Shown piece by piece: positions 7,565-64,000 of a DNA stretch of 64,000 nt. The translations under genes and the position numbers were made by a program. The notes under the pieces were generated by a model that worked only from the letters and a program-made list of their open reading frames with translations, did no database searches and was not told the DNA's origin. The number at the start of each line of letters is the position of its first letter. Position 1 is the stretch's first letter. This DNA comes from Candidatus Heimdallarchaeota archaeon LC_2 (lineage in GTDB: Archaea > Asgardarchaeota > Heimdallarchaeia > Heimdallarchaeales > Kariarchaeaceae). Where the stretch lies: contig MDVR01000004.1 in the NCBI GenBank assembly GCA_001940725.1, forward strand, positions 14,348 to 78,347, given 5' to 3'.

Positions 7565-9955
7565 TCAAATTAAATAGACTACGGTGAACAAGATAATCCA
7601 CACTAAATCTACGAAATGCCAATAGAGTCCAATGAACTCTACATATTCGTGTCTTTCTTTTGAATATCCCCCTTTTCTAGCTCGGAAATAGACGAATGTC
7701 AAGAAAATCACACCCACCAATACATGTAACCCGTGGAAACCTGTTTGGAGGTAGAAAGCAGAACTGAACAAGGGATAATCAGCAAGTTCATCAGGATTGA
7801 TCATGACTTCACCTTCGTTGGCTAATGATATGTATTCAAACACCTGTATTGAAAGAAATAATACACCTAATCCAATAGTTCTCAATAGCCATTTTTGTAA
7901 TTCTTCTTGTTTTCCTTGCTTAATTGCATTCAAACCTCGGGCCATTGTATAACTTGAGATTATCAAAATGAATGTGTTAACTGCAGTTAGTGGCACATTT
8001 AAAACATCAGCGGGATTTGGCCAATTATCGCTACTAAATCGCATAGCTACACCTGAACCAATCAAGGCTCCAAAGAAAATTACTTCCGAAGCTAAGAAAA
8101 TCCATATTTCCCAATTTCTATCTTTTCGATATTCATCAACGTAGGTCAATTCTTTCAGATCTTTGTTAATTTCAGTATACAGAAGAGCAACTAATGATAC
8201 TACAAATCCAGCAAGGAAAATCATTCCCCAAATATTTCCAGGCAAGAATTTATGCAAGAAGCCTTCCTCTTGTGTTCCAAAATCTATTTCACCAAATGGA
8301 CCAGCTTCTGCAAATGCAGCGATGGCCAATAAAGGTAAAGCAAGTGAGAATGTTCCTAATGGAGCAGTTAAACTGAGTTTATGATCAATAGATACCTTTT
8401 CGCCAGTAGTTTCTGCGATATGGTCAGCATAAGGTTGTGGAAAATCATAACCACTACCCAATTCGAATGGATCATCCTTATTTTTAACTGGTTCACCATT
8501 AAAATATCCAGACATGATAGAATGCAAGAACAATAGGAAAGATATACCCATTAAGAAGCCGCCAACTGAAGCAGTTTGGTGCCAAATTTGGAAATCTCCA
8601 TCGTAAGTCCAATATCTTCTAGGCATGCCTTCCATTCCTAATATTGTGAATGCTGTAAATGCAATGAAATTACCTACAACCCAAAACCAGAATCCAATTT
8701 TAGCTGTTAATTCATTATACATTTTGCCAGTCATATCAGGGAAGTAATAATAAAAGGCTGCAAACATGGCGTTTAATGTTCCTGCTGCAACGATGAAATG
8801 GAAATGCCCAACTACCCAATATGTACCATGAAGATAGAGATCTAACACAATAATATTGAGGTAAACACCTGTAATTCCACCAAAGGTAAATAATGCAATA
8901 AAGGATAAACAATATAGCATAGGAGTAGAATACTTGATATTTCCGGCATATAATGTAGTTATCCAGTTCAATACTTTGATCCCTGATGGAATTGCAATTA
9001 CAAAAGTCATAGTTGTGAAAGCGACCCTAACAAATGGATCGAGACCAGTTACATACATGTGATGCGCCCAGACCATAAAACTAAGTACTGCTAAAGCGGC
9101 CATAGCGCCAACCATTCCAGAGTACCCGAAAACAGGTCTACGGGCAAATTTTGCTAGAATACCCGAAACTAAACCAAAAGCTGGAAGAACCATAATGTAC
9201 ACAGCTGGATGGCTGTAGAACCAAAATATATGTTGATACATTGTTGGATTACTAAAACCTGCATCAAAGAATGAGGTTCCGAAATTTCTATCTAGTAAAA
9301 TCATGACGAGTGCTGTTGTCAAAACAGGAGTTGCAAATATTATCAATAGAGATGTAAATAATGTTGCCCAGACAAAGAGATCGAGTTGCATCCATTTAAC
9401 GTATGGAGCTTTACCCTTCCAAATAGTTAGGGTAAAATTAAGTCCTCCAATGGTGGACGACGTACCTGCAAAAACGAGTCCTACAATCCACATATCAATA
9501 CCACCCGAAAGCGTACTTAGAGCAGTTGATAGTGGGGGATAAGCGGTCCAACCTCCTCGTGCCTGAGATAACCAAATAAAGACACTTCCAACGGGGAGCA
9601 TCCAGAAAGCCACATTATTCCATTTAGGCCAGTACATATCTGCATTATCTGCAGCGACCATCCGTGGAAGAAGATAATTAGCAAATCCAGCACCTAATGG
9701 AACTACTACTAGAAATATCATTGCCGTTCCATGAAGAGTAAATGCGGTGTTGTATTCATTACCGCCAGCAAAGAAGTCACCTTCAGGAGTCCATAATTCC
9801 CATCTGATCATCATCGCATATAATCCAGCAATTGCCATATTAATTAGAGTCGTGAGAAAGTATAATCTACCCAATTCGGTTGCATTTGTTGTTCCTAACA
9901 TCTGTTTAGGATTTTTCCAAAGTGAAGTACTATGATGTTGAGTTATTGTTGCCAT
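7565..9955 (-). CDS. Cytochrome c oxidase, fused subunits I and III (A2-type heme-copper oxygen reductase)
   Basis: From ATG 9955 (GGAGG ten nt upstream) the protein is 796 residues; an in-frame start at 10033 would overlap the subunit II gene and is rejected. Residues 1 to about 570 are subunit I. They show low-spin heme ligands H75 (FTLHGTAM) and H386, CuB ligands H249, H298, H299, the cross-linked Tyr Y253, the high-spin heme ligand H384 in VVGHFHF, and the K-channel Lys in PSGIKVLNW. The helix VI motif is FYSHPAVY, with no Glu. That YSHP form defines the A2 subfamily. About residues 590-796 are subunit III (LASEVIFFGALIGSG, final helices WHFVDLVWIILFTVVYL). I-III fusions are known in several lineages. 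It catalyses O2 reduction at the membrane, implying an aerobic or microaerobic host. Confidence 0.95.
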   Translation of the reverse strand: MATITQHHSTSLWKNPKQMLGTTNATELGRLYFLTTLINMAIAGLYAMMIRWELWTPEGDFFAGGNEYNTAFTLHGTAMIFLVVVPLGAGFANYLLPRMVAADNADMYWPKWNNVAFWMLPVGSVFIWLSQARGGWTAYPPLSTALSTLSGGIDMWIVGLVFAGTSSTIGGLNFTLTIWKGKAPYVKWMQLDLFVWATLFTSLLIIFATPVLTTALVMILLDRNFGTSFFDAGFSNPTMYQHIFWFYSHPAVYIMVLPAFGLVSGILAKFARRPVFGYSGMVGAMAALAVLSFMVWAHHMYVTGLDPFVRVAFTTMTFVIAIPSGIKVLNWITTLYAGNIKYSTPMLYCLSFIALFTFGGITGVYLNIIVLDLYLHGTYWVVGHFHFIVAAGTLNAMFAAFYYYFPDMTGKMYNELTAKIGFWFWVVGNFIAFTAFTILGMEGMPRRYWTYDGDFQIWHQTASVGGFLMGISFLLFLHSIMSGYFNGEPVKNKDDPFELGSGYDFPQPYADHIAETTGEKVSIDHKLSLTAPLGTFSLALPLLAIAAFAEAGPFGEIDFGTQEEGFLHKFLPGNIWGMIFLAGFVVSLVALLYTEINKDLKELTYVDEYRKDRNWEIWIFLASEVIFFGALIGSGVAMRFSSDNWPNPADVLNVPLTAVNTFILIISSYTMARGLNAIKQGKQEELQKWLLRTIGLGVLFLSIQVFEYISLANEGEVMINPDELADYPLFSSAFYLQTGFHGLHVLVGVIFLTFVYFRARKGGYSKERHEYVEFIGLYWHFVDLVWIILFTVVYLI

Positions 9956-9969
9956 TTTATTTCCTCCAA

Positions 9970-10650
9970 TTAAACTACCGTGATTGTACGATCCCTCATT
10001 TGTGAATGCCCAGCACCGCAATATTCTGCACATAAAATTTGGTATATTCCAGTTTCGCTAATATGTATGGTTATTGAATTTATAACTCCCGGTAGAGCAT
10101 CAATTTTGATGTTAAGATCTGGGACAAAAAATGAATGAATAAAACCGAAACCACCAACAGATGTTACCTCAAATTCATAATTAAACCCAGCAGCTAGGAT
10201 GAGGTTTTTAGTAGTAACTTCATGCCCTGTGGAGTTTATTCTGACAAACGACCAATCCCATTCAACCGCATTTACTCGAATAGTTTCATTTGCCTCAAGA
10301 TCAGTACTAGCACTATCTAAATCAAATAAAAATGGATAAGATACAATCATTAGTATAATCACTATGCCGATTGTAACTAGGGTCCATGTTACTTCCAATT
10401 TACGGGCTGCTTCATGTGATATTGGAGTACGGTCAACTTCGGTATTAGATTCACTAAATTTTTGCATGAAGTAAATCCATATTCCAATTACACCAACTGC
10501 GACTACAACAGAAATAACTGTTACAAAAAGGAATAAATTGTCATAATCCTCTTTCAAGTCATTTGCTGCAGAGCTAGGAGAAATAGAATAAATAAAGCTT
10601 AATAGTGCTAAAAATATTGATAAATTTCGTAGTTTTTGAGCTACTCTCAT
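9970..10650 (-). CDS. Cytochrome c oxidase subunit II with complete CuA site
   Basis: The 226-residue protein has a signal peptide (LSIFLALLSFIYSISPSSA), two membrane helices (about 40-62 and 90-110) and a C-terminal cupredoxin domain. The CuA ligands are all present: H172 (FIHSFFVPDL) and C207, E209, C211, H215, M218 in CAEYCGAGHSQM. WDWSF near residue 131 matches the conserved aromatic electron-entry patch. It receives electrons from a soluble donor on the outer face and passes them to the fused subunit I. No cytochrome c domain is fused, so the donor is probably a separate cytochrome or blue copper protein. It is the first gene of the operon, with a 14-bp gap before the fused subunit I/III gene. 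Confidence 0.95.
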   Translation of the reverse strand: MRVAQKLRNLSIFLALLSFIYSISPSSAANDLKEDYDNLFLFVTVISVVVAVGVIGIWIYFMQKFSESNTEVDRTPISHEAARKLEVTWTLVTIGIVIILMIVSYPFLFDLDSASTDLEANETIRVNAVEWDWSFVRINSTGHEVTTKNLILAAGFNYEFEVTSVGGFGFIHSFFVPDLNIKIDALPGVINSITIHISETGIYQILCAEYCGAGHSQMRDRTITVV

Positions 10651-31075: not shown

Positions 31076-32995
31076 TTATCTCAAAACACTATTTATTGTC
31101 TCAGATAATTCATTTATAGAATAAGGCTTTTCTAATATTGCACTAATACCTAGATCTAATATTTCTGAAAATTTTTCTCTTGTATATCCTGAAGAGATGA
31201 TAACCTTTACATCAGAATCAATTAATTTCATTTGAAGAAAAGTGTCTTTACCATCCATTTCTGGCATGACCATATCTAAGAAAACTAAATCGATTTCATT
31301 ATGCCTTTCTTCAAAAATCGCTACACCTTCTAAGCCATTTGTAGCAGAAATTGATGTGTATCCTAGAATTGTTAACATTCGACCTAATAGTATTCGAACA
31401 TCTTCTTCATCTTCAACAATTAATACTAAGCCTAAATTCAATTTTTCTTGAGCTTTCATGGTCAATATTTTTTCATCGGTAACCAAATTCCCAATAGGAA
31501 AATAAACATCAAATGTAGTTCCTTCGTTAATCTCTGATTTTACATCTATGACACCGCCGTGATTTGTCACAACATTATAGACAATAGTCAAACCTAAGCC
31601 GTTACCTTTGACGGTCCCATCAATCTTTGTTGTAAAAAACGGCTCGAAAATTTTGTCCATTAACTCCTCTGGAATTCCCTTACCTGTATCATTTATGGTT
31701 AATTTTACAAATTCCCCCGGTTTTATATTTGGCGATTTCATAATATAACTATCTAAATCAGCTAAACTCGCCATTGTAGTTGATATACTTATTTTTCCTT
31801 GGCCCTCAATTGAATCTATTGCATTAAATAGCAAATTCATTACTACCTGACTTATTTGAGTAGGATCACCATCTAATTCCATTAGATCAGAGTCCAAGTC
31901 TAAATTGATTTTTAATTTTGCTTGAATTGATGGATTTATTAGTGCATAGGTATCTGAAATAATAGAATTTAGATCAACACTAATAAGCTGGTCTACATGC
32001 TTTTTAGTGAATGTTTGTAAACGATCTATTAGTTTAGCAGCTCTTTTCGAGGCATTAATTATTTTCTCTAAGTAAACCTTGTTTTCATCCAATGACTCTT
32101 GAGTTAAGATAAGACTTGCATAACCCATAACCCCAGAAAGTGTATTATTAAGATCGTGGGCGATTCCTCCTGCAAGATTGCCTATGGAATCCATTTTTTG
32201 AGATTCAATTAATTTAGCTGCGACCTGCTTATTGTAAGTAATATCATGAACTATACCCATGATCCCCATGGGTTTGTAATTTTTACTAAAAATGGGTCCC
32301 TTTGTCACGCTAGTTGTTCTCAACTTTTTATCAACAAATAAGGTTACTTCAGAAACCTCCACTCTTCCTGTATCAATAATACGTTTATCTTCGATTAGAA
32401 ATTTTTCAGCAATCTCAGAATCAAACAAATCATTATCTGTTTTTCCTTGAGCACTTCGTACTGTCAGACCATGAAAATCAGCAAAAGCACGATTAACATT
32501 GGTATAAATCCCATTTAAATCCTTTACAAATATGGGATCTGGAGCATGTTCAAATATCATGTTAAGAATCGCATTCGATTCTTCAAGTTCTTTATTCAAC
32601 TTTTCACTTTGTGTTACATCTCTTGAATTACCAAGTATTCCGATTATTTTACCCTCAGCTCCGAATAATGGGCTTTTAATGGTCATAATATTTTTAGTTT
32701 CATTAAGATGTTCTGTATTAAAATATAAAACAGTCGTTTCTTGTCTCTGAAGTACTTCTTTATCACTTTTTAGAAATAATTCACTTAATTCTTTTGAAAA
32801 TATATCTGAATCTACCTTTCCGATAATTTCATCTTCAGATTTATTGTAAAATTTTAAGTAACTTGTGTTTACCATTAAATATTTAGAATTAAGATCTTTA
32901 ACCCATATTACATCTGGTGAATTATGAATAGCTAATATGAAAAGCTCATTTTTATCGCCTAAATTTATTGACGATTCTTTTGATGAAGGAGACAT
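31076..32995 (-). CDS. PAS-PAS hybrid histidine kinase with C-terminal receiver
   Basis: The 639-residue protein contains two PAS domains ([17 protein letters not shown] and [17 protein letters not shown]), a HisKA domain with phospho-acceptor His in [14 protein letters not shown], and an HATPase domain with N box NAIDSI, G1 [18 protein letters not shown] and G2 [13 protein letters not shown]. The receiver domain reads [15 protein letters not shown] and has its phospho-acceptor Asp in [12 protein letters not shown]. There are no membrane helices, so it senses a cytoplasmic signal through the PAS domains. The kinase-plus-receiver build implies a phosphorelay whose output partner is not adjacent; the response regulator at 44462 is one candidate in the window. 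Confidence 0.92.
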
Positions 32996-44461: not shown

Positions 44462-45349
44462 TTAAACTAATTTAACAATTTCAGCAAGTATCATTGATTT
44501 TAATTTTATTAATGTCTCATCAGTAAAAAATTCAGCATCTACAACCTGAGATTTTATTATATCTACTAGATAGGACATTTTATCTGCATGTGGTAATAAA
44601 GAAATGAATGATTTTTGTACAAACAAACATAATTGGAAAAATCCAAGTCTTAATCGTACATCAAATGCATTTTTATCAGGAATACGAAATGATAGTAACA
44701 TGATCTCAAAGAATTTGGATGCCCCAGCGGGAAGGATGAAAGCACCTTCGTAATACTCCATATCGTCACCTAAGAGCATTGAGAAAGAAATTCCTAAGTT
44801 CATTATATATTCTTCAGTAGATCTTTCTAAGTATTCAGGAAAAACATCAAAATCTTGGTATACTGGCTCAACACCCATTTCTGAAATTTTAAAGAGTACC
44901 ATTGGGTAGTTTTCAATTGCAAATATACTTTTTTTGAGCTGATTATTCTTCGTTCGCAGTTCAATATGTTTCAATGCAGATTTTAAAGTAACCATTAAGT
45001 CTGAACTGAAAGTTTCACCCTTGCAAACATATGATGTTGCACCATAGTCTAAACATGCCAAGGCCGTTCTAATTTCCGTTTGGGAAGAACTCACAATTAT
45101 AATTAAATCCTCATTTAACTCCCTAATTCTTGGAATTAATTCTAAAGAACTTCCATCTGGTAAATTTAAATCCAATATTAATAAATCACAAGAAAGTCTG
45201 TTTTTCTCAACCTCCGCCTTAAAATCAGTCAAATTTTCAAATACCGTGATCTCACTTTCCTCGCTCTGAGTTTCGATAATATTAATGATATTTACAACTG
45301 TAAATGGAGAATCCTCAACAATAAAGTATTTTTGCTTAGAATTAGACAA
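44462..45349 (-). CDS. Response regulator with a novel C-terminal alpha/beta domain
   Basis: The 295-residue protein has an N-terminal receiver: YFIVEDSPFTVVNII (acidic pair), the phospho-acceptor Asp in LLILDLNLPDGSSLE, then IIIVSSSQTEIRTA (Ser switch) and YVCKGET (the conserved Lys). Residues 150-295 form a second domain: MVLFKISEMGVEPVYQD, SFSMLLGDDMEYYEGAFILP and FEIMLLSFRIPD. This has the rhythm of longin or roadblock-type sensory folds common in Asgard archaea, but that match is only by eye. It may be an output partner of one of the two histidine kinases in the window. Confidence 0.75.
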   Translation of the reverse strand: MSNSKQKYFIVEDSPFTVVNIINIIETQSEESEITVFENLTDFKAEVEKNRLSCDLLILDLNLPDGSSLELIPRIRELNEDLIIIVSSSQTEIRTALACLDYGATSYVCKGETFSSDLMVTLKSALKHIELRTKNNQLKKSIFAIENYPMVLFKISEMGVEPVYQDFDVFPEYLERSTEEYIMNLGISFSMLLGDDMEYYEGAFILPAGASKFFEIMLLSFRIPDKNAFDVRLRLGFFQLCLFVQKSFISLLPHADKMSYLVDIIKSQVVDAEFFTDETLIKLKSMILAEIVKLV

Positions 45350-46513: not shown

Positions 46514-47182
46514 TTAATAAGTTGTAGTTAGAATTAAACTTCTCATAAGAGCTTCAGCAGTATTATTTATTGCCAAAGTAATGGATTGTCCGATCTCATC
46601 ACTTGAAACTAGATTTCGAATTTCATGTAAATAAGTTTCCAACTCCTCCTCCATAAAAACCTCATTCTCACAATTAGTTGCATACATTAAACTGAGAATT
46701 GCTAAAACGCGATGGTCTGATTCTTCATTGTTAATAACAATTCTTTGAATATTATTAATGATCAAATCTTTCACATTTGGATTAGTTAAGAAAAATCGAT
46801 CACTCTTAAACATTCCAAAGGTTTTTTGAATTTCTTTTCTGAGAATACCATTTGTTACTAGATTCTCTAAGATCATTTCTTTGATATTACGAAATTCTAA
46901 TCTCAATATCCTTAACCATGAGTATATGGACAAGCTTTCAGATTCAATGCGTACTCTTTGAAAAATAGTGTCTAGGAGATTATCACTAGTAAGCGTTTCA
47001 TCAATAATAATTAATTTATCTTTATAAATTGTTAATCTTCCTTGTAAAACAAGGTCCAGAATAAGCCCACCAATAAGACCGTGAGATAATAGATTATTCC
47101 GTTTGCTTAACTTACCGGTGTTAGGATTTAATACCATGAGAATTAATTCTTCAGATAGATTTCCAAAATACAAAGAAAACAA
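46514..47182 (-). CDS. GPP34 (GOLPH3/Vps74) family protein
   Basis: The 222-residue protein follows the GOLPH3/Vps74 fold across its length: LSEELILMVLNPNTGKLSK, LLSHGLIGGLILDLVLQGRL, LDTIFQRVRIESESLSIYSW, then FRNIKEMILENLVTNGIL and HRVLAILSLMYATNCENEVF. In eukaryotes GOLPH3 binds PI4P at the Golgi with Trp81, Arg90 and basic partners. Here the aligned positions are Arg and Ile (KLSKRNN...GLIGG), so that PI4P pocket is not conserved. In bacteria and archaea the family has unknown lipid roles. It is a single-gene unit. GPP34 proteins also occur in actinobacteria, so this is not a proof of eukaryotic kinship. Confidence 0.8.
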   Translation of the reverse strand: MFSLYFGNLSEELILMVLNPNTGKLSKRNNLLSHGLIGGLILDLVLQGRLTIYKDKLIIIDETLTSDNLLDTIFQRVRIESESLSIYSWLRILRLEFRNIKEMILENLVTNGILRKEIQKTFGMFKSDRFFLTNPNVKDLIINNIQRIVINNEESDHRVLAILSLMYATNCENEVFMEEELETYLHEIRNLVSSDEIGQSITLAINNTAEALMRSLILTTTY

Positions 47183-51397: not shown

Positions 51398-51580
51398 TTG
51401 ATCATGTTTGGCTGTATATGATTTACTTTTTTATTTATGAATGCTGATATTTCAAATCTTAATTAACTATATTTTTTAAACAATTATTTTATTCAATAAA
51501 CTAATCAGTTAATATAAATTTGAACGATTGATATTTAACTTACTTCTAAATATCATAAATTGAGAGATTGGCGTCCTAAA

Positions 51581-54500
51581 ATGGAGTGTCATAATTGTAA
51601 TACAGAATTGCCAGATGATGCAATGTTTTGTTTAAAATGCGGATATAAGCAAAGCAAAATATGTCTTAATTGTAAGAGTGAACTTCCCGCACATGCAGCT
51701 TTCTGTTTAAAATGTGGAACAAAAATTGATGAAGCGCCTAAACAAGAAATCTCAAAAAATTCAGCTGAATCAGACACATCATTGGAGCATTATATTCCTA
51801 AAGAATTATTAGATAGAATAAAAACTGCCCAGAAAACTGGTAAAACTCAAAATGAAAGAAGAATAGTTACCATGTTATTTTGTGATCTAGAGGGATCCAC
51901 AGCCGCCGCTGAAGGGTTAGATCCAGAAGATTGGGCAGAAATTATGAATGGTGCATTTGAATACTTAATCCAACCAGTTTATAGGTATGAAGGTGTTTTA
52001 GCACGTTTAATGGGTGATGCTATATTAGCCTTCTTTGGAGCTCCATTAGCTCATGAAGATGATCCGGAACGTGCAATCCTTACTGCAATTCAAATCGCAA
52101 ATGGTATCAAACCCTATTTAGAAGAAGTAAAAGAAAAGTGGGATATTGAAATAAATTTTAGAGTTGGAATTAATACAGGACTAGTTGTTGTAGGGGAGAT
52201 GGGTTCAGATAATAGGGTTGAATATACTGCAATGGGTGATGCAATAAATTTAGCCTCTAGGATGGAAAGCACTGCGTCTCCTGGGACCATTCAAATTACC
52301 GGGAATACATTCAAGCTGGTTGATCATTTGTTTGAATTTGAGAACTTAGGATCAATGGATGTCAAAGGTAAATCACAACCTATACAGACATACAAAGTTA
52401 TTCGACCAAAAAGTCGACGCCAGCAAATTAAAGGAATTAAAGGCTTCTCATCCCCACTAGTATCAAGGGAAAACGAATTTAGGGAAATTCATGAAAAAAT
52501 TGACAGATTGATTGAGGGTCACGGGAACATAATTTCCATAACAGCAGAGGTGGGAATTGGAAAAACTCGATTGATGAGTGAAGTATTTAATCATTTACAA
52601 GAAGCTCACAAAATCTCTAATCTCAATACAGAAAATACAATTATTGGTAGTGAAAGTTCCATCTTTTGGTTTTCAGGAAGATCTTTGTCTTATCAAACCA
52701 ATGTGGCATTTGCACCATTTATTGATATTTTGACCAATGTTTTTGATTTAGCAGATTTAATGGATGACGCTGTAAAATATGCTCGAATTAAATCAACTAT
52801 ATTTAGATATGCTGGATCACCGGATATCGCACCTTTTATTGCCAGTTTATTTAATATAGAACCCCTTGGGGAAGACCTCGATCGAGTCAAATATTTAGAT
52901 CCCCCATTATTGAGAGTAAAAATATTCAGCGCTATTTTAGAATTTTTTCAACTTCTTTCAAAACATAAACCTATAGCTATAATTTTAGACGATCTACATT
53001 GGGCTGATGCATCGACAATTGAGCTTTTGAAATCAATGTTGAAACTCTGTCAATCTGAAATGATTTGCATAATTATGTTATTCAGGCCTAATAAGGAGGC
53101 TATATCATGGGAAATTCATGAACATGGACAAAGAGAATACAAGCACATCTATACCAATATTGAATTAGAATCTTTAAATTACCAAGACGCAGAGGTATTA
53201 ATCAATAATCTTCTAGAAATCGAAGGATTAGGGGAAGCTGTTATAAATTTAATATTTGAAAAATCGGATGGTAATCCTTTATTCCTTGAGGAAGTAGTTG
53301 GTTCTCTAATTGACAAAGAATTAATAAAATTTGAAAATTCGGGTTGGCTGGTAAGTACAGATTTCTCAAACTTATCGATCCCTGATACATTATCAGGCGT
53401 GTTAACTGCAAAATTAGATGGGTTAGACGATGACTCAAAACATATTTCTCAAATTTCATCAGTTATAGGAAGAGATTTTCGATTAGATATTTTAGAGGAT
53501 ATATATGAAGGAACTATTTCAGTACTTGACACATTATTCAAACTCCAACAACGTGAGATGGTGATTGAAAAATCTAAAAAACCATTGCATATATTTTCCT
53601 TTAAACATGCATTAACTCATGAAATTGCTTATAATTCATTGTTAATCAAAACACGAAGAGAATTACATCATAAAATTGCAATGTGTTTTGAAAAGATTGA
53701 ACCAAACAATGTGTTAGAAATCTCAAGACACTATTATGAAGCAAATGATTCCCAAAAAGCTCTTCCATATTTGGTTAAAGCTGCTTCCCAATCCGCAAAA
53801 GCATTCTCAAATCAAGAGGCAATTTCCTTATTCAATACAGCAAAAGAGATCCGAGATGAGAACGCTTCTATCCAATTAACAAATGAGTTATATGGAGGAT
53901 TAGGTCAAACGTTAATGCTAATTGGAGAAATTGACAAAGCTGTAGAAACGTATGACGAAATGTTAGATCTCGCAAAGAAAGCCAAGGATTATGATTGTCA
54001 AGTTGGAGCACTGAATCAATTAGGATATCTTACTGCGTTGTTTAAAGGTGATATTCATAATTCCTTGACCTATCTTGATGAATCTGAAGAACTTGCTAAA
54101 TCATTCTCAATCGATTTTGGACTGGCAGAGAATTTTATGATAAGATGCAATATAGACACAGCCACTGCTAAATTTGATGATGCAACTGAACATCTATCTG
54201 AAGCAGCTCTTATTGGAGAGAGATTAGAAGAAACTAATACTCAATTATACGGAATGACTCATATGGCAAATACCTATGTTTACATGGCTAATTTTGAAGA
54301 AGCGAGCAATCAAGCAGTAAAGACAATAGCACTTGCAAGAAAAATTGGTGATAAAATCTATCTATCTGAACTATTAACCTTCTCATTACCATTTGTTTTA
54401 CTACTCAAAGGGGATCTGATAGAAGCTGGAAATGTAGCTGCTGAAGGACTGTCACTTGCTGATGAAATTGGAACACCAGCAAACCAAATGCATGGTAATA

Positions 54501-55252
54501 TGACATTAGCAGAGATTTCTATACTTACTGGGAATTATGAAAAAGCGATTCGTCACACTAAACTAGCAAATGAGCATGCAAAGATAATTGGGGTTCCAGC
54601 ATATATGACCTATGTAAGATCCTGCCAATTACATATTGAATTGGAATTAGGAAATTTCAATAATGAAGTAGAAGAAGATTTCAATCAAATTTTAAGCTTA
54701 TTAGATCATCCTTGGGGTGCCTTTCTTGGAGGAAAGACTTGGACAATCTATGGCATGTTTTTGAATAATAAGGGCAAATATGAAGAGGCAATCAAATCTT
54801 TCGATAAAGTTAATACGGTTCCTAATACCTTAATGCATCTGTATGAACCCTATGCATTACTTGGGAAAATATGGGCATTAATTTCATTAGATAGGAGGAA
54901 AGAAGCCTTGGAGGTTACGATTATGGTTGAGAAAATAATAAAGGAAAAAGGCTTCAAGATCTTAAAACCCCAATTACTATATTTGAAAAGTATCCAAGCA
55001 TCAGGCGAACTAAAAACTAAGTTGATAGAAGAAGCTGAATCACTAGCAGAAAAAATTGGACTTAAGTCAATACTTTGGAAAATTCAAAGGGAATATTCAA
55101 ATATCCTAATAGAAGAAGGGGATTCAGAGAAGGCAGCATTAAAAGAAAAAAATGCGAATATAACTCTTGACTTCATTAAAATCAATATGAATGATCCTAA
55201 AGTCATAGATTCCTTTAACAAATATACTGTATTGATGACAAATCCAAATTAA
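51581..55252 (+). CDS. Zinc ribbon-class III nucleotide cyclase-STAND ATPase-TPR protein
   Basis: From ATG 51581 the protein is 1223 residues. Two ribbons (CHNCNTELPDDAMFCLKCG, CLNCKSELPAHAAFCLKCG) cover residues 3-45. A class III cyclase domain follows (about 92-270): metal-binding D102 in LFCDLEGST and D146 in LMGDAILAFFGAP, and N223/R227 in MGDAINLASRM, all needed for catalysis. The purine-selecting Lys position has Arg142, so ATP or GTP use is open. A STAND ATPase comes next, with P-loop AEVGIGKT (322-329) and Walker B IAIILDDLHWAD, then TPR-like helices over about residues 700-1150. It would make cAMP or cGMP in response to a protein or ligand bound by the TPRs. It is 150 bp upstream of a kinase with a cyclic-nucleotide domain. 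Confidence 0.92.
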   Translation: MECHNCNTELPDDAMFCLKCGYKQSKICLNCKSELPAHAAFCLKCGTKIDEAPKQEISKNSAESDTSLEHYIPKELLDRIKTAQKTGKTQNERRIVTMLFCDLEGSTAAAEGLDPEDWAEIMNGAFEYLIQPVYRYEGVLARLMGDAILAFFGAPLAHEDDPERAILTAIQIANGIKPYLEEVKEKWDIEINFRVGINTGLVVVGEMGSDNRVEYTAMGDAINLASRMESTASPGTIQITGNTFKLVDHLFEFENLGSMDVKGKSQPIQTYKVIRPKSRRQQIKGIKGFSSPLVSRENEFREIHEKIDRLIEGHGNIISITAEVGIGKTRLMSEVFNHLQEAHKISNLNTENTIIGSESSIFWFSGRSLSYQTNVAFAPFIDILTNVFDLADLMDDAVKYARIKSTIFRYAGSPDIAPFIASLFNIEPLGEDLDRVKYLDPPLLRVKIFSAILEFFQLLSKHKPIAIILDDLHWADASTIELLKSMLKLCQSEMICIIMLFRPNKEAISWEIHEHGQREYKHIYTNIELESLNYQDAEVLINNLLEIEGLGEAVINLIFEKSDGNPLFLEEVVGSLIDKELIKFENSGWLVSTDFSNLSIPDTLSGVLTAKLDGLDDDSKHISQISSVIGRDFRLDILEDIYEGTISVLDTLFKLQQREMVIEKSKKPLHIFSFKHALTHEIAYNSLLIKTRRELHHKIAMCFEKIEPNNVLEISRHYYEANDSQKALPYLVKAASQSAKAFSNQEAISLFNTAKEIRDENASIQLTNELYGGLGQTLMLIGEIDKAVETYDEMLDLAKKAKDYDCQVGALNQLGYLTALFKGDIHNSLTYLDESEELAKSFSIDFGLAENFMIRCNIDTATAKFDDATEHLSEAALIGERLEETNTQLYGMTHMANTYVYMANFEEASNQAVKTIALARKIGDKIYLSELLTFSLPFVLLLKGDLIEAGNVAAEGLSLADEIGTPANQMHGNMTLAEISILTGNYEKAIRHTKLANEHAKIIGVPAYMTYVRSCQLHIELELGNFNNEVEEDFNQILSLLDHPWGAFLGGKTWTIYGMFLNNKGKYEEAIKSFDKVNTVPNTLMHLYEPYALLGKIWALISLDRRKEALEVTIMVEKIIKEKGFKILKPQLLYLKSIQASGELKTKLIEEAESLAEKIGLKSILWKIQREYSNILIEEGDSEKAALKEKNANITLDFIKINMNDPKVIDSFNKYTVLMTNPN

Positions 55253-55402
55253 AAAATTTACAATTTAATTCCGAAAATTAATATATATTTGATAATAAGA
55301 TTGAAACAAAATCGATTGAAGTCAAATTTTATTTAACTTTAATGTCAAATTTAAATAAAAAATAGATATTTATTTAGAACGGAGTTACTATTGAGAAAAT
55401 AA

Positions 55403-57253
55403 TTGAGCTCTGAAAATATTCTCTCTTTTTTGCGTGATGTATCGTTATTTAAAGGATTGGCTGAAGAAGATTTAGTCAAATTGTGTAATATGGTTCATGA
55501 AGAACATTATAAAAAGGGAACGACTATTTTCAATGAAGGAGATGGTTCAGACACAGCTTATATAATCAAATCCGGTCAGTTGGAAATATTAAAAAGTTCC
55601 AAAGGATCTCCAATTTTGCTAGCAATAAGGGAAAAAGGCGATTTCATAGGTGAGGTTTCATTATTTCAAGAATCTCAACGTACAGCGACTGTTAAAGCAA
55701 GAACTGATGTAAGTGTTATTTGTGTTAAAAAAGAAGTAATGAATAATCTAATTAGTATTAGTCCATCAGCAGCGAAATCGATGTTTTACACGATTCTTGC
55801 AAGGTGGCATTCAACTGAAGCATTATTGAAACAAACAGACAAAATGGCTCAACTTGGAACACTAAGCGCAGGATTAGCTCATGAGTTAAATAATCCAATA
55901 TCCGCAATTGCAAATGCAAGTTCAAGCTTAGGGAAAATTATGGACCAATTCTTAGATTTACAATTTCAAATTGATAAACTTGATTTGGTCGTAAATAATT
56001 TAGATCTTTTTGTTGAACTAAAAGAGAGAGCTAAATTGAAAGCACATCAACCTCCCGAATTTACTTCTATTGAACGTAGTGATATAGAATATGAAATTGA
56101 AGAATTTTTGGAAGAAAAAAATATTGATAATTCTTGGCTTTTAGCTTCGTCATTAGCTAGTTTAGATTTTTCCATTGAGGAACTTGTAATTTTAACAGAT
56201 AAATTCTCAGTTGAAAATATTACAGTAATTTTCAATTGGGTTGATAAAGTATTCACTATATTTAGTCTTCAAGTGGATGTTGCCACTGCTGCTGAGCGCA
56301 GTTCTGCGATTGTTAATGCTTTAAAGGAATATTCATATTTGGATCAAGCTCCTCTCCAGTCAATTGATATTCACAAAGGTTTGAATAATACATTATTAAT
56401 TTTACAAAGCAAGTTAAAATCGGGTATAACTGTCATAAAATCATATAACGAAAACTTACCATTAATAAAAGCATATGGTGGTGATTTGAATCAGGTTTGG
56501 ACCAATTTGATTGATAATGCAATCGATGCTGTAGAGAATAAGAGAGGCTTAAATGAGGCTGAAATCACTATAAAAACTTCTCTTCATTTGGATTGGTTAT
56601 TAATAGAAATTGAGGATAATGGATCGGGAATACCTGCTGAAATAAAAGAGAAAATTTTCAATCCATTTTTTACGACAAAAGCCCCAGGAAAAGGTACAGG
56701 ATTAGGATTGGATATTTCATATCAAATAATTGTAGAAAAACATAAAGGTCACATAAAAGCCTACAGTAAAGAAGGTAGTACAAGTTTTAAGGTCTTTTTA
56801 CCTTTAAATATTGAAAATGTGCATGGAAGATCACCTATTGAGGATTTTATTATTCCTGATGATGAAGATTTACTTATTATACTTCAAGAAACAAAAAACA
56901 TCGCAGTTGTGAAGAGTTCTTCTCAGGTTGAAAACCCTGCAAATAATGTTCCAGCTTATTTAAAATCTCAAGGTTATCTTATAATTGGGATAAGTTCAGA
57001 TCACGATACATTTCTTGAAGAAAAAACTTACTCAACTTTAGAAGATATACCTATTCCAATAGATCTTGTTTTGATTTTTGAGCCATCATCTAAAGTAAAT
57101 GATATTGTAAAAGATGCCATAAAGAAACAAACATCGTCAATTTGGATGCAAGAAGGTATTATCAATGAAGATGCTGCAGAATTGGCCTTGGATAATGGTC
57201 TAAAAGTAGTTATGGATCACTGTATGAGGGCAACCCACAGAAGATTGATTTAA
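55403..57253 (+). CDS. Cyclic-nucleotide-binding histidine kinase with C-terminal CoA-binding domain
   Basis: The start is TTG 55403; there is no nearer ATG. Residues 1-125 are a cNMP-binding domain whose phosphate-binding cassette [19 protein letters not shown] keeps the Glu (E84) that contacts ribose and the Arg (R93) that holds the cyclic phosphate. This supports real cNMP binding. A histidine kinase follows: H160 in [15 protein letters not shown], a long helical insert, N box [12 protein letters not shown]1 [11 protein letters not shown] and G2 [15 protein letters not shown]. The end (about 495-616) matches the CoA-binding (YccU-like) family: [56 protein letters not shown] and [10 protein letters not shown]. 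Such a domain with a cNMP-HK chain is unusual. No receiver is attached. It is in an operon with the MBL gene. Confidence 0.9.
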
Positions 57254-57271
57254 TTCGAGGTTATTAGGAAA

Positions 57272-58201
57272 GTGGATATCAAAATTAATATTTATGGTGT
57301 TCGAGGTTCTGCACCAATATCTCATGAAAATTATATGAAATTCGGGGGAAATACAGCATCACTTACAATTCGGACCTTGGAAAATTCTTTAATTTTCCTT
57401 GATGCGGGAACAGGATTAAAGCTTGCAGAGACTCAACTTGATGAGATTGCCGATAAAGTATTTCTTTTAATCAGTCACACTCATGCAGACCATATTGCCG
57501 GTTTTGGAATGTCAAAGTTGTCTAAATTAAATTTACAGAAAGGATATGAAAAGAAGAAATTGCAAATAATCGGTCCGAATGAAATTCGTAGATCATTATC
57601 AAAATATTATGATGGGGATATAATTTGGCCAGTAAAATTTGATCAATCAAATGAACAAATGAAAACTATGAATGGTATTGATTATGAAAATATCATTGAA
57701 TTTAGTGAAGATAATCAAGAAATACAGATTGACTCAAAAACCAAAATAACTCTCATGCAGGGTAATCATCCAGTCAAGCACGGAGTTGTTTTATTCAAAA
57801 TCGAAATGCAGGATTTAGGAAATATTGTAAAAATTGTATATGCCACTGATAATGAGTTTGACCACATATTCAATGGGGTTGTAAATCTAGAGAAAGATAA
57901 ATTCAAATCAAAATACATAAAATTTGTTCAAACAGCTGATATTTTAATTGCTGAGGCTCAATATCAAAAAGGGAATTATGATTCTATGAGAGGTTTTGGT
58001 CATTCTTATCCAGAACAAGTTATTGAGCTTGCAAACAAAGCGAACGTAAAACGATTAATTATAACCCATCATAATTTAATGCAAGATGACGAATTGGAAA
58101 TAATCTACCAAAATGCTATTGATTTTGCTAAAAAATTGAATTCGAATTTAATTGTTGAATTTGCAAAAGAAGGTACGCAGATTATCTTCGAGGAAAATTA
58201 A
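57272..58201 (+). CDS. Metallo-beta-lactamase-fold hydrolase, candidate cyclic-nucleotide phosphodiesterase
   Basis: The 309-residue protein starts with GTG 57272, 18 bp after the kinase stop. It has the MBL layout: GVRGSAPISH and FGGNTASLTIR at the N-terminus, LDAGTGLKL, the metal motif HTHADHIAGF (H69, H71, D73, H74), the fourth-metal His in MQGNHPVKHGV, YATDNEFD and the final His in IITHHNL. The GVRGS...GGNTS start is typical of the phosphodiesterase-like branch (PhnP, RNase Z-like, Lactamase_B_2). Adjacency to a cyclase and a cNMP-sensing kinase makes a cNMP hydrolase an attractive hypothesis, but other phosphodiesters or a CoA thioester are equally possible. Confidence 0.85.
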   Translation: MDIKINIYGVRGSAPISHENYMKFGGNTASLTIRTLENSLIFLDAGTGLKLAETQLDEIADKVFLLISHTHADHIAGFGMSKLSKLNLQKGYEKKKLQIIGPNEIRRSLSKYYDGDIIWPVKFDQSNEQMKTMNGIDYENIIEFSEDNQEIQIDSKTKITLMQGNHPVKHGVVLFKIEMQDLGNIVKIVYATDNEFDHIFNGVVNLEKDKFKSKYIKFVQTADILIAEAQYQKGNYDSMRGFGHSYPEQVIELANKANVKRLIITHHNLMQDDELEIIYQNAIDFAKKLNSNLIVEFAKEGTQIIFEEN

Positions 58202-58468: not shown

Positions 58469-58882
58469 TGTAACATATAATATTTGACAGCGTAATATTT
58501 AAACCTAAACGCGGAAATTAATTCTAGAACAATTATACCGTATATTCACAAACCATCAAATGACTATTAAATACATTCTTGCCGATTTAAGATATACTAA
58601 GATGAACAAAAATAAATTATTGCACTCAAAATTATTATACAATATTAATCATATTCGCTCAAAATCTCATTATATGGTAAAACCAAGTCAATTTGACCAT
58701 TATTATCCATGAAAAACCTGATCTTGTACATTATTTTGATTAACTGAGTTCTGATCTAGCAGATTTTAGTTCAGCGCTCTAGTCTTCTAGTGAATTATTC
58801 TCCGATTAGGTTTATATATTTTTGACATCTAAATTTATATGTGAAATCCACGTATTCATCATTAAGTAACCGCAGGTTACAG
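58469..58882. other. Intergenic region before the giant repeat gene
   Basis: About 410 bp of AT-rich DNA. It includes a 36-codon plus-strand frame (58602-58712) that is not convincing, and a TATA-like TTTATATATT at 58811-58820. That box would suit a leaderless GTG start at 58841, in frame with the downstream gene. Confidence 0.35.
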
Positions 58883-61800: not shown

Positions 61801-64000
61801 TATCCCAATTGAAATCAATATTGATAATCTAGATCCAGGAATCTATAATTACACAATTGTGCTTTACGACACAGCCTCGAATTCTAAATCTCATATAGTA
61901 ATACTTTCAGTAATCGATACAACTCCACCAGTTTTTACTACAATACCTGAAGATGTCTCATATTCTAACGGAACAATCGGCAATACTTTAATTTGGATTG
62001 CTACAGATCTTGATCCTGACACCTACATTCTATATAGGGAAAGTGTCTCAATAGAATCAGGATCTTGGGTTTCTTCAGGAATTATCTTGATAAATATAGA
62101 TGGGTTGGCAAATGGAGTATATAATTATACAATTCTTATGTCAGATTCTTATGGTAATTCAATTTCAAATGAGGTAACCGTCACCGTAACATCTGAAGCA
62201 GTATTTACATCTGTGCCTAGAGATGTTTCTTATATAAACGATACTTCAGGAAATATACTCAGTTGGATTATGGAAGATTCAAGTCCTGATTCATATAAAA
62301 TATACAGAAATGAAACTGAAATTATATCTGATACTTGGACAAGTGGTATTCCTGTCATCATTAATATTGATAATTTAGATATAGGATATCATAATTTCAC
62401 TATATGGGTGAATGATACTGATGGTAATATTTTAATTGATCAAGTAAAAGTATTTGTCACAGACAATCCTTTAGTTAGTACCCCTCCGAATGATATTTCC
62501 TATGATGAAGGGGGATCTGGATTTAGCATTACCTGGAATGCCACAGACACACTACCTGATAACTATACTCTTTATATAGATGAAATTTTTAATTCAACGG
62601 GTATTTGGACGAATGTTGACAACATCATCATAAATGTTGATGGATTGGCCAAGGGAGTATACAATTATACAATTGTGTTCATAGATGAATCTGGTAATCA
62701 TATTCCAAATACTGTTATAATAACAGTGAGTGATATAACCAAACCAACAATAAGTACACCTCCAAATGTAATCTATGATGAAGGGGATCCAAATAATGAA
62801 ATTATTTGGGTAGGAAATGATTTACATCCTCATATGTACAATGTTACAAAAGACGGATTACCATTTGCTTCTGGCATTTGGTCAGATGGTGGATCTATTA
62901 CAATTAACGTTGATGATTTGGGAATAGGAACTTATGTATTTATTATTTATTTAAATGATACTTCAAACAATGTAATTAGTGATATTGCTTTAGTTATAGT
63001 TGCAGATTCCTTATCTCCCACGATATCTACTCCTGATGATTTATCATATGAAGAAGAGTCTAGTTCAAATATTATTTCTTGGATTGGTATTGATAATTAT
63101 CCAGATAAATACGTAGTTGAAATAGATGGAGTTTTTTATTCTAATGGAATATGGATATCAACAGAATCAATAAATGTTGATATTGATGGTTTGACACCGG
63201 GAGTTTACATATTTACAATCACCTTAAATGATACCTCGAATAATATTATTGTCGATATTGTTTTTGTTACTGTTACAGATACAGTAAATCCAGGAATATC
63301 GGAGCCCATCGATGATAGTTATGTTGAGGGTTCATCATCCAATGTAATATCGTGGACTGGAAATGATAAGAATCCTGATATGTATGTTGTGGAGAAGGAT
63401 GGTGTTTACTATCAACACGGAAATTGGAATGATGGTGTTGCAATAATTGTTAATATAGACGGATTAACAATTGGAGAATATATATTTACAATTACAATCA
63501 ATGATACATCAAACAATTTTCTTGTTGATTCTGTTACGATCACTGTCGTAGATACAACTAATCCACAGATTAATAATCCCGATGACACATCATATTCAGA
63601 AGGATCCCCTAATAATAATATCACATGGGTTGGAATTGATACAAATCCTCATAAATACGTGGTGACAGCAAATGGAACAATAATTGATTCAGGCTTGTGG
63701 ATAAATGATTCAATTATTGGTGTAGATATTGATGATTTAATCAAAGGAACACATATAATAATAATTACATTAAATGACACATCAAATAATGAGATAACAA
63801 ATCAGGTTGTTTTGATAGTATTTGATGATTCAAATCCTATAATTTCTGACCCGAGTGACGCATCATATTCTATAGGATTAACAGGTAATAAAATTTTATG
63901 GACTGGGACAGATACTAATCCTCACAAGTATATTATTGAGAAGGATGGTGTTTATAATACAAGTGGTACTTGGAATTCTGGCATTCCAATAGAAATTGAT
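58883..64000 (+). CDS. Giant secreted protein of Ig-like tandem repeats, C-terminus outside the window
   Basis: The frame from ATG 58883 runs open for exactly 1706 codons to the window edge; GTG 58841 is an in-frame alternative supported by a TATA-like box. A signal-anchor (FRLLLLGVLFFILISPAFII) follows a long basic N-terminus. Residues about 120-370 form a globular region that ends in LGHVIVDSLSSLNGGWGLG and YIQYMNY, recalling secreted GATase-like domains (inference). Then about fifteen repeats of about 91 residues follow, each with an opening N-P-x-I...P-x-D-x-S-Y-E, a central I-x-W-x-x-x-D-x-x-P and an ending G-x-Y-N-Y-T-I...D-T-V-x-V-T-V. These look like bacterial Ig/cadherin-like adhesion modules. 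It is probably a cell-surface stalk or adhesin. Confidence 0.9.
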   Translation, partial: MKKWINPQTRSVSRNNVISQHITLIRFSKNKFRLLLLGVLFFILISPAFIIGNSGLSQTHNNNESTSIQNIQVNDLSIASRAGNDISTNNIIIEKSSILREEDLTGQKLIKPPFLPVGDNNELDSESSLINYGVSGGTIIPAVSETVTTPNGCINPTADFLIVDHGQVKSHIFTNNFTYQTISEEDFGAITAEEIMEYRMLLMEPNWVNYTALRSGIGSVKQALNQSSCLVVALRIGNENLGAKVDIDLLGTDYDDTNWHDGENFVAADHPFITASPWSGFGLIAADFNAWSYTDVGTFANTPKSQPGYTEILQNKDVGTDYPTMFEYDYGLGHVIVDSLSSLNGGWGLGKTFVANNYIQYMNYTSYQNQVPIVVESPGNLTYNEFTIGNILQWDVHDSNPKNYSIYIDGTIEKDNLTWISDNPISYINDSLGLGIYNITLIVEDLSGHQTIDTLFLTVRDGTKPIFQSNPTDLTIATASWDNELEWNVTDDENPDVYLLYEDNVLVDFGPWSNNQLIVYNIDHLSTGPHNVTVFVLDLAENVAINTVLITVEDDSTPPSFTSTPGNLIYEEGEIGNTLKWRATDNFPYFYQLFINEVEFNVGLWFDGVDLSLDVDGLNLGTYNFTVRFFDTSGSSVIDTLFVLVEDSVNPIIQSEPGDLTYELESSGNMLGWTVTDNHPDTYILQINGSNYDFGSWESDVFFEINIDNLSVGDYNLTIILFDSSSNLRTNTLFVTVEDTTNPVSNQPSNQTLEIGSTSNTIDWTISDFDPMNYIVYLNGSEYSSGLWSSGLDVTINVDGLGLGVHSFVIQAYDASGNFITDTVLVTAVDSFDPSINKPTDIIYEYGSTLNQIIWIGTDDDADIYSLTRNGSLLSVAAWSSGNAILVGIDGLLPGVYNYTITLFDAANNQAFDVVIVTVQDTVAPDITQPNDIQYEFGSTENKISWNGSDLSPLSYNIFVNSSLTQSGGWSTNIPIEINIDNLDPGIYNYTIVLYDTASNSKSHIVILSVIDTTPPVFTTIPEDVSYSNGTIGNTLIWIATDLDPDTYILYRESVSIESGSWVSSGIILINIDGLANGVYNYTILMSDSYGNSISNEVTVTVTSEAVFTSVPRDVSYINDTSGNILSWIMEDSSPDSYKIYRNETEIISDTWTSGIPVIINIDNLDIGYHNFTIWVNDTDGNILIDQVKVFVTDNPLVSTPPNDISYDEGGSGFSITWNATDTLPDNYTLYIDEIFNSTGIWTNVDNIIINVDGLAKGVYNYTIVFIDESGNHIPNTVIITVSDITKPTISTPPNVIYDEGDPNNEIIWVGNDLHPHMYNVTKDGLPFASGIWSDGGSITINVDDLGIGTYVFIIYLNDTSNNVISDIALVIVADSLSPTISTPDDLSYEEESSSNIISWIGIDNYPDKYVVEIDGVFYSNGIWISTESINVDIDGLTPGVYIFTITLNDTSNNIIVDIVFVTVTDTVNPGISEPIDDSYVEGSSSNVISWTGNDKNPDMYVVEKDGVYYQHGNWNDGVAIIVNIDGLTIGEYIFTITINDTSNNFLVDSVTITVVDTTNPQINNPDDTSYSEGSPNNNITWVGIDTNPHKYVVTANGTIIDSGLWINDSIIGVDIDDLIKGTHIIIITLNDTSNNEITNQVVLIVFDDSNPIISDPSDASYSIGLTGNKILWTGTDTNPHKYIIEKDGVYNTSGTWNSGIPIEID

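Follow-up and report, generated by a model that had tools for sequence, protein, structure and literature searches.

The closest described relatives of the proteins considered here are bacterial zinc ribbon-class III cyclase-AAA-tetratricopeptide repeat (TPR) proteins; histidine kinases (HKs), several of them named Chloroflexi, with an N-terminal cyclic nucleoside monophosphate (cNMP) domain and a CoA_binding_2 domain at the other end; bacterial regulators joining a receiver to a thioredoxin reductase (REC-TrxR), together with the cNMP-domain HKs next to them; and the atypical class II phosphodiesterases Rv1339, CpdA of C. glutamicum and YhfI. According to PMC8646023, only a very few of the adenylate cyclases predicted in archaea belong to class III; PMC5847659 already notes an archaeal REC-TrxR in two Heimdallarchaeota; and in PMC10343646, which bears on archaeal or Asgard kinases, the terms cNMP, cyclic, CoA and adenylate do not occur. 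Here we analyzed a stretch of 64,000 nucleotides (the window) from Candidatus Heimdallarchaeota archaeon LC_2, in which three consecutive genes encode a class III cyclase, an HK with a cNMP pocket and a hydrolase of the metallo-beta-lactamase (MBL) fold; we found no report of such a cyclase/HK/MBL block in the open-licence literature searched. An earlier note on this DNA had proposed that the three genes form one synthesise-sense-degrade circuit. With moderate confidence, and working from sequence, we propose that they belong to a redox two-component module, gated by cNMP, that some Heimdallarchaeia possess.

The cyclase, kinase and hydrolase genes

All three genes lie on the plus strand in the order and with the spacing described in the earlier note, with gaps of 150 bp and 18 bp, and Pfam matches agree with the domain identities that it had assigned. 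The features are as follows.

51581..55252, plus strand: zinc ribbon-class III cyclase-AAA_16/STAND ATPase-TPR protein, 1223 amino acids, ATG start at 51581 (Pfam matches and catalytic residues)
51863..52396, plus strand: class III cyclase catalytic domain, residues 95-272 (D102, R142, D146, T216, N223, R227), PF00211 at 89.1 bits
55253..55402, no strand: AT-rich gap between cyclase and kinase genes, 150 bp, 17% GC; the place of the REC-TrxR gene in the related locus L004
55403..57253, plus strand: HK with cNMP-binding, HisKA, HATPase_c and CoA_binding_2 domains, 616 amino acids, TTG start (Pfam)
55649..55684, plus strand: phosphate-binding cassette of the HK cNMP domain, Gly83 to Thr94 (Glu84, Arg93, Thr94), from alignment and PKG Ibeta spacing
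56894..57238, plus strand: C-terminal CoA_binding_2 domain of the HK, residues 498-612 (PF13380 at 94.3 bits; solved CoA-binding proteins matched)
57272..58201, plus strand: MBL-fold hydrolase, YhfI/RNase Z/PDE1-like, 309 amino acids, GTG start (PF12706, predicted model and fold matches)
57476..57493, plus strand: HTHADH metal-binding motif of the MBL, residues 69-74, from its invariance among 30 aligned relatives

The cyclase open reading frame (ORF) spans 51560-55252, and its product matches a double zinc ribbon, Guanylate_cyc (cut-off 21.9 bits), AAA_16 (70.2 bits; cut-off 32.6) and TPRs. The catalytic residues Asp102, Asp146, Asn223 and Arg227 are all present; we take the two Asp residues to be the metal ligands and the Asn and Arg to be the transition-state pair. 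Bacterial zinc ribbon-cyclase-AAA-TPR proteins share the full architecture, near-invariant catalytic residues, and Arg and Thr at the two purine positions. Since Arg at position 142 (120 of 122 aligned rows, the window being counted twice) and Thr at position 216 (119 of 122) are nearly constant, this combination is a trait of the subfamily as sampled.

The HK has Pfam matches to cNMP_binding (PF00027; 75.8 bits, cut-off 27.5), HATPase_c (86.0; 26.4) and CoA_binding_2 (cut-off 22.8), while its HisKA region falls under the Pfam cut-off (24.0 vs 26.9 bits). The phospho-acceptor His160 and the N-box Asn372 are found in 132/132 aligned homologue rows, some of them duplicated. Glu84 and Arg93 of the cNMP pocket are both present and correctly numbered in the earlier note, as judged by alignment, and were kept in 13/13 lettered rows of the archaeal set (P0073-P0083, the window, L004 and L001), although they comprise fewer independent proteins than rows, since P0073 represents the window, P0077 is a fragment, and P0081/P0082 and L004 are apparently one protein. 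The pocket is thus intact in the MBL-linked archaeal kinases, including that of genome G002 (see below). Listed relatives with the same Pfam architecture include some named Chloroflexi and some named Kariarchaeaceae, and in the Chloroflexi-type rows (P0084-P0154, a few of them archaeal) Glu was kept in 71/71 and Arg in 69/71. The two rows that lost the Arg, P0098 (contig 16263) and P0102 (contig 16157), are archaeal HKs of the same architecture without a size-matched MBL contig. Rows P0155-P0192, mostly without the coenzyme A (CoA)-binding end, have the Glu in 37/38 and the Arg in 12/38.

The residue that follows the pocket Arg sets the archaeal kinases apart from the Chloroflexi-type ones: in the archaeal set, 11 of 13 rows have Thr there and the other two Ser, while Met or Phe is common in P0084-P0154 (43/71, vs Thr or Ser in 21/71). 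The spacing of the HK cassette matches Gly182/Glu183/Arg192/Thr193 of PKG Ibeta, in which, as reported in PMC3080414, Thr193 touches the 2-amino group of guanine and its replacement by Ala or Val increases the cGMP required for activation by 27- to 29-fold, although the isolated domain favours cGMP only about two-fold. A predicted model of the HK cNMP domain (confidence score, pLDDT, 88.5) matches the GlxR/CRP and PKG domains. From these comparisons, it is plausible that the HK domain is competent for cGMP.

The MBL matches Lactamase_B_2 (PF12706; 34.7 bits, cut-off 27). Its HxHxDH site is intact, as the earlier note had it, with His69, His71, Asp73 and His74 invariant in the 30 aligned relatives; H166, D193 and H266 are likewise invariant and, given the fold, are further candidates for the metal site. 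The MBL resembles the atypical class II phosphodiesterases in its PF12706 domain, in the sequence SHTHADH, which fits their [T/S]HXHXDH motif, and in having YhfI as top Foldseek match to the predicted model (pLDDT 95.2). Unlike those enzymes, it is about 20% identical to YhfI when the structures are aligned and scores 28.4 bits against the 400-bit cut-off of the NF041851 equivalog for atypical class II cNMP phosphodiesterases, and the MBL and its relatives form a separate group with GVRGS and GGNT motifs. Since ELAC1, RNase Z and other MBLs share such a metal-binding motif, the motif is weak evidence for a cNMP phosphodiesterase, and the closest fold depends on the method (Foldseek puts YhfI first, VIA-align RNase Z). 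The MBL is a plausible candidate for a phosphodiesterase.

Several candidate associations of bacterial MBL relatives were rejected. Among 76 bacterial MBL loci (L005-L080, from 80 returned of 119 candidate loci, many of them on short contigs), three have a cNMP domain no more than 5 kb away; none has a cyclase closer than 3 kb, although one has it at 3.3 kb. The genes annotated as MBL in the Streptomyces and Tsukamurella regions score 8.1 and -1.9 bits against the A1 profile and do not count as close relatives. Three bacterial relatives appear to be fused to a receiver domain (L053 1039-2409; L077 2629-3963; P0062), which suggests, from their predicted domains, a two-component output role there.

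Linkage of the genes in relatives

We found the HK gene followed by the MBL gene in two archaeal loci read as DNA, L001 (gap of 16 bp) and L004 (gap of 4 bp), with a cyclase gene also present in L004. In protein lists, same-contig linkage was inferred from equal listed size of the longest contig, and the HK and cyclase lists comprised the best 120 matches. On this basis, HK and MBL homologues are size-matched in 10 contigs, that of the window and nine others, five of which carry archaeal names (LC_3, Kariarchaeaceae, Hodarchaeales); among the nine, contig 22293 apparently holds L004's own proteins and the match for contig 2182 is based on two fragments. The cyclase occurs on 4 of the 10 (78347, which is that of the window, 19648, 32589 and 111813), plus L004 by DNA, and so cyclase, HK and MBL are linked in five diverged contigs, with HK distances of 0.33-0.53 among them. 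As a control, bacterial MBLs, distant HKs and distant cyclases gave no contig matches among the matches listed. The archaeal zinc ribbon-cyclase-AAA-TPR proteins are linked to a cNMP-HK and an MBL, while the more distant listed rows gave no contig match of this kind; likewise, except for P0085, none of the Chloroflexi-type kinase rows was size-matched to contigs of listed MBLs or cyclases.

The HK and MBL distance matrices of the 10 contigs are correlated (r 0.89, with 0/5000 permutations as high), as expected for co-inheritance, although shared species history alone would give the same result. Nine of the 10 labelled rows of MBL-linked HKs group with the unlabelled P0078 (support 98). We rejected a single origin of all MBL-linked HKs, as the HK of L001, a flagged long branch, is placed elsewhere. 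The earlier note had named a neighbourhood not conserved in relatives as the first finding that would speak against its circuit; the neighbourhood is kept, apart from MBL rows without a listed HK.

We examined the distribution of these genes in the 227 genomes of L004's phylum, taken as Asgardarchaeota (genome completeness not stated), accepting HKs at E <= 1e-60 with at most five candidates scored per genome, MBLs at E <= 1e-15, and at most six REC-TrxR candidates per genome. The co-occurrence among Asgard genomes to which the earlier note had looked held for the HK and MBL, found in the same two genomes, G001 and G002; the class III cyclase was found in G001 but not G002. Full-length REC-TrxR was present in these same two (2/227), while the matches in 23 other genomes start at query residue 149 or later and so lack the receiver. 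Three of the 227 genomes have class III cyclase domains (four copies in G001, one in G166 and one weak in G093) and seven have PF00027 domains, the sole one found in G001 and in G002 being that of the HK. The cyclase and cNMP protein on one contig of G166 were rejected as a further block, being a TPR-type protein and a 145-amino acid cNMP protein instead.

Class III cyclases are more widespread in the phylum of G228, the genome of the Woesearchaeota locus L002, where domains over the cut-off occur in 62/361 genomes (67 at E <= 0.001), vs 3/227 in L004's phylum. An association of MBL and cyclase in that phylum was also rejected, PF00211 being present in 2/5 MBL genomes (G331, G469) vs 67/361 overall, numbers too small to demonstrate an association.

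A receiver-thioredoxin reductase beside the kinase

In L004, the order of genes is cyclase, REC-TrxR, HK, MBL, a gene with an FGE-sulfatase domain, which from context we take to be EgtB, and a gene for a histidine-specific methyltransferase (EgtD). The REC-TrxR (558 amino acids) consists of a receiver, a middle region and an FAD/NAD pyridine nucleotide-disulphide oxidoreductase, and its gene overlaps that of the HK by 4 bp. In G002, contig L109 has the end of an EgtB-like protein (71% identical to that of L004), an EgtD-like gene (41%) and a REC-TrxR that matches L004 residues 7-510 up to the contig end, and L001 opens with 48 residues matching L004 REC-TrxR residues 511-558, followed by the HK and MBL. 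Most likely, L109 and L001 adjoin and the order in G002 is egtB-egtD-REC-TrxR-HK-MBL, lacking a cyclase as far as the sequence extends. Thus egtB/egtD-like genes stand beside the block in both G001 and G002, on opposite sides (L004 8826-11231; L109 1-1319), which speaks for a redox setting.

The same pairing occurs on bacterial plasmids. We opened six regions, drawn from ten listed records with REC-TrxR matches of 98-99% coverage and 48-54% identity, and found an HK directly downstream of the full-length REC-TrxR in 6/6, with a 4-bp overlap in four and a cNMP-type domain in each HK. These pairs resemble the archaeal one in gene order, in overlapping or near-touching ends and in the N-terminal position of the cNMP-type domain. 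In contrast to the archaeal kinases, they lack the Glu/Arg pair (Glu 2/6, Arg 0/6; for the nine plasmid HKs, Glu 2/9 and Arg 0/9, both by automatic alignment, with the Arg one column off in the second Deinococcus HK), and plasmid matches to the window HK end near residue 470, without the CoA-binding end. The cyanobacterial plasmid pairs in L083 and L084 lie beside glgX and an AGE epimerase gene, and the actinobacterial pairs in L087 and L088 precede a UBP-type zinc finger gene. Another pairing of cNMP domain and TrxR is seen in Deinococcus aquaticus (L089 3524-5248), where a cNMP domain is fused directly to a thioredoxin-disulfide reductase.

The earlier note was right that the kinase output is missing from the locus: REC-TrxR, the likely output that it had overlooked, is absent from the window. 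Its suggestion that the receiver at 44462 might be the partner did not hold up. No linkage of that receiver to the HK was found, and REC-TrxR fits better, adjoining the HK in L004 and in the 6/6 bacterial regions and co-occurring with it in G001 and G002.

Other features of the window include a COX1-COX3 fusion (heme-copper oxidase) at 7565-10033, which fits an organism that meets oxygen; a hybrid PAS-HisKA-HATPase-receiver kinase at 31076-32995; a GPP34 (Golgi phosphoprotein 3) family protein at 46514-47182 (125.7 bits); and a very long repeat-like ORF, probably for a surface protein, that begins at 58841 and runs off the window end at 64000.

Proposed working and competing explanations

From the architectures, residues, linkage and HK-REC-TrxR neighbourhood elsewhere, all evident from sequence, we infer the activities, direction of regulation, ligand and MBL substrate of a module that might work as follows. 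The class III cyclase, controlled by its TPR and ATPase parts, would make a cyclic mononucleotide, which would bind the N-terminal cNMP domain of the HK and set its autophosphorylation on His160. The HK would phosphorylate the REC-TrxR flavoenzyme (the next gene in L004), coupling the messenger to the NADPH/thiol redox state, and its CoA-binding end may sense CoA or the CoA redox state. The MBL would remove the cyclic nucleotide or a related phosphodiester. The link between synthesis and sensing is the stronger inference and that to degradation the weaker. The single circuit of the earlier note is therefore borne out in part: the linkage of cyclase, HK and MBL in five contigs and the kept pocket favor it, but the output is absent locally and no evidence was found for the 44462 receiver as partner. 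More doubtful is a complete Asgard circuit with a dedicated cyclase, the genome's sole PF00027-type receptor (the HK), REC-TrxR as output and a dedicated MBL hydrolase, in which the messenger level would be tied to thiol/ergothioneine redox control; the messenger might be cGMP-like because the archaeal kinases linked to an MBL have Thr or Ser where PKG has Thr193.

A number of findings weigh against a cNMP-gated redox module. At the position of Arg142, a point absent from the earlier note, three of the four aligned solved cyclases have Lys and the fourth (2w01) has Glu; since Arg is neither, the nucleotide preference of the cyclase cannot be read from its sequence. With Arg142 and Thr216, the cyclase lacks the adenine-type purine pair of Lys with Thr/Asp, which we take to be the adenylate cyclase rule; the canonical guanylate-cyclase signature is also absent, and the Thr-based hint of cGMP in the HK has no counterpart there. 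Moreover, the messenger could stem from a cyclase other than the linked one, as four class III cyclases are present in G001. The pairing of HK and REC-TrxR can work without cNMP, given that the bacterial kinases beside a REC-TrxR do not keep the Glu and Arg of the pocket as a pair. With one Cys in all, the REC-TrxR of L004 has no CxxC; ordinary thioredoxin reduction is therefore unlikely, and the protein is probably something other than a typical thioredoxin reductase. No listed size-matched HK exists for eight archaeal-type MBL rows whose contigs exceed 5 kb (25867, 15357, 12814, 6930, 14414, 5872, 61486 and 5332); one of these, contig 25867 (P0006, P0194), has cyclase and MBL homologues with no HK among the best 120, possibly through loss or a broken gene. 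Finally, a tblastn search of the 64-kb window with REC-TrxR found no REC-TrxR, and nothing in the 150-bp gap, so the local circuit is incomplete. Its matches were one to the receiver alone, at 31109-31408 (E 3e-5), and two weak ones to oxidoreductases near 12 kb (E 0.05-0.09). The window organism may have its REC-TrxR elsewhere in the genome or may have lost it.

It is possible, if not probable, that the core unit is HK, REC-TrxR and MBL (with the ergothioneine genes), acting as a thiol-redox system in which the cyclase is a frequent neighbour and not the source of the signal, while the substrate of the MBL is a different phosphodiester or is thiol-linked. G002 speaks for such a core, since it keeps egtB/egtD-like genes, REC-TrxR, HK and MBL, has an egtD-like gene and not a cyclase upstream of REC-TrxR, and has no PF00211 match in the genome (completeness not stated). 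So do the nine bacterial plasmid regions examined, in which neither a class III cyclase domain nor a relative of the window's MBL was found; the two Woesearchaeota genomes that hold MBL relatives with no PF00211 or PF00027 match (small genomes, completeness not stated); and the scarcity of cNMP domains and cyclases near the 76 bacterial MBL loci. However, the archaeal kinases linked to an MBL, even that of G002, keep their cNMP pocket, and five diverged contigs carry the cyclase although so few genomes of the phylum have one.

We consider it unlikely that the circuit of the window lineage is broken, such that REC-TrxR is lost and the HK is an orphan without enzymatic output or phosphorylates an unrelated receiver, such as that of the 44462-45349 protein. 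The presence of that protein, the 150-bp gap where L004 has its REC-TrxR gene and the negative tblastn result would all fit this reading, but the catalytic residues and pocket of the HK are intact, REC-TrxR may lie outside the 64 kb seen, and nothing was found that ties the 44462 protein to the HK. Still less probable is that the MBL is an RNase Z-type tRNA/RNA-processing nuclease with no part in the signal, a reading with which the VIA-align ranking would agree, given that the best NCBIfam RNase Z score (71.7 bits) is far under the cut-off (252), that Foldseek ranks YhfI first, and that HK and MBL are tightly linked with correlated distances.

If the proposed cNMP-gated redox module is true, a cNMP pocket has been retained in a kinase whose examined REC-TrxR-linked bacterial counterparts lack it, in a phylum where class III cyclases are very rare (3/227 genomes). 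The Asgard phylum is usually taken to hold the closest archaea to eukaryotes. Linked genes for a cyclase, a receptor, an output and a candidate hydrolase would offer a concrete place to test the roles of cyclic mononucleotides in archaea.

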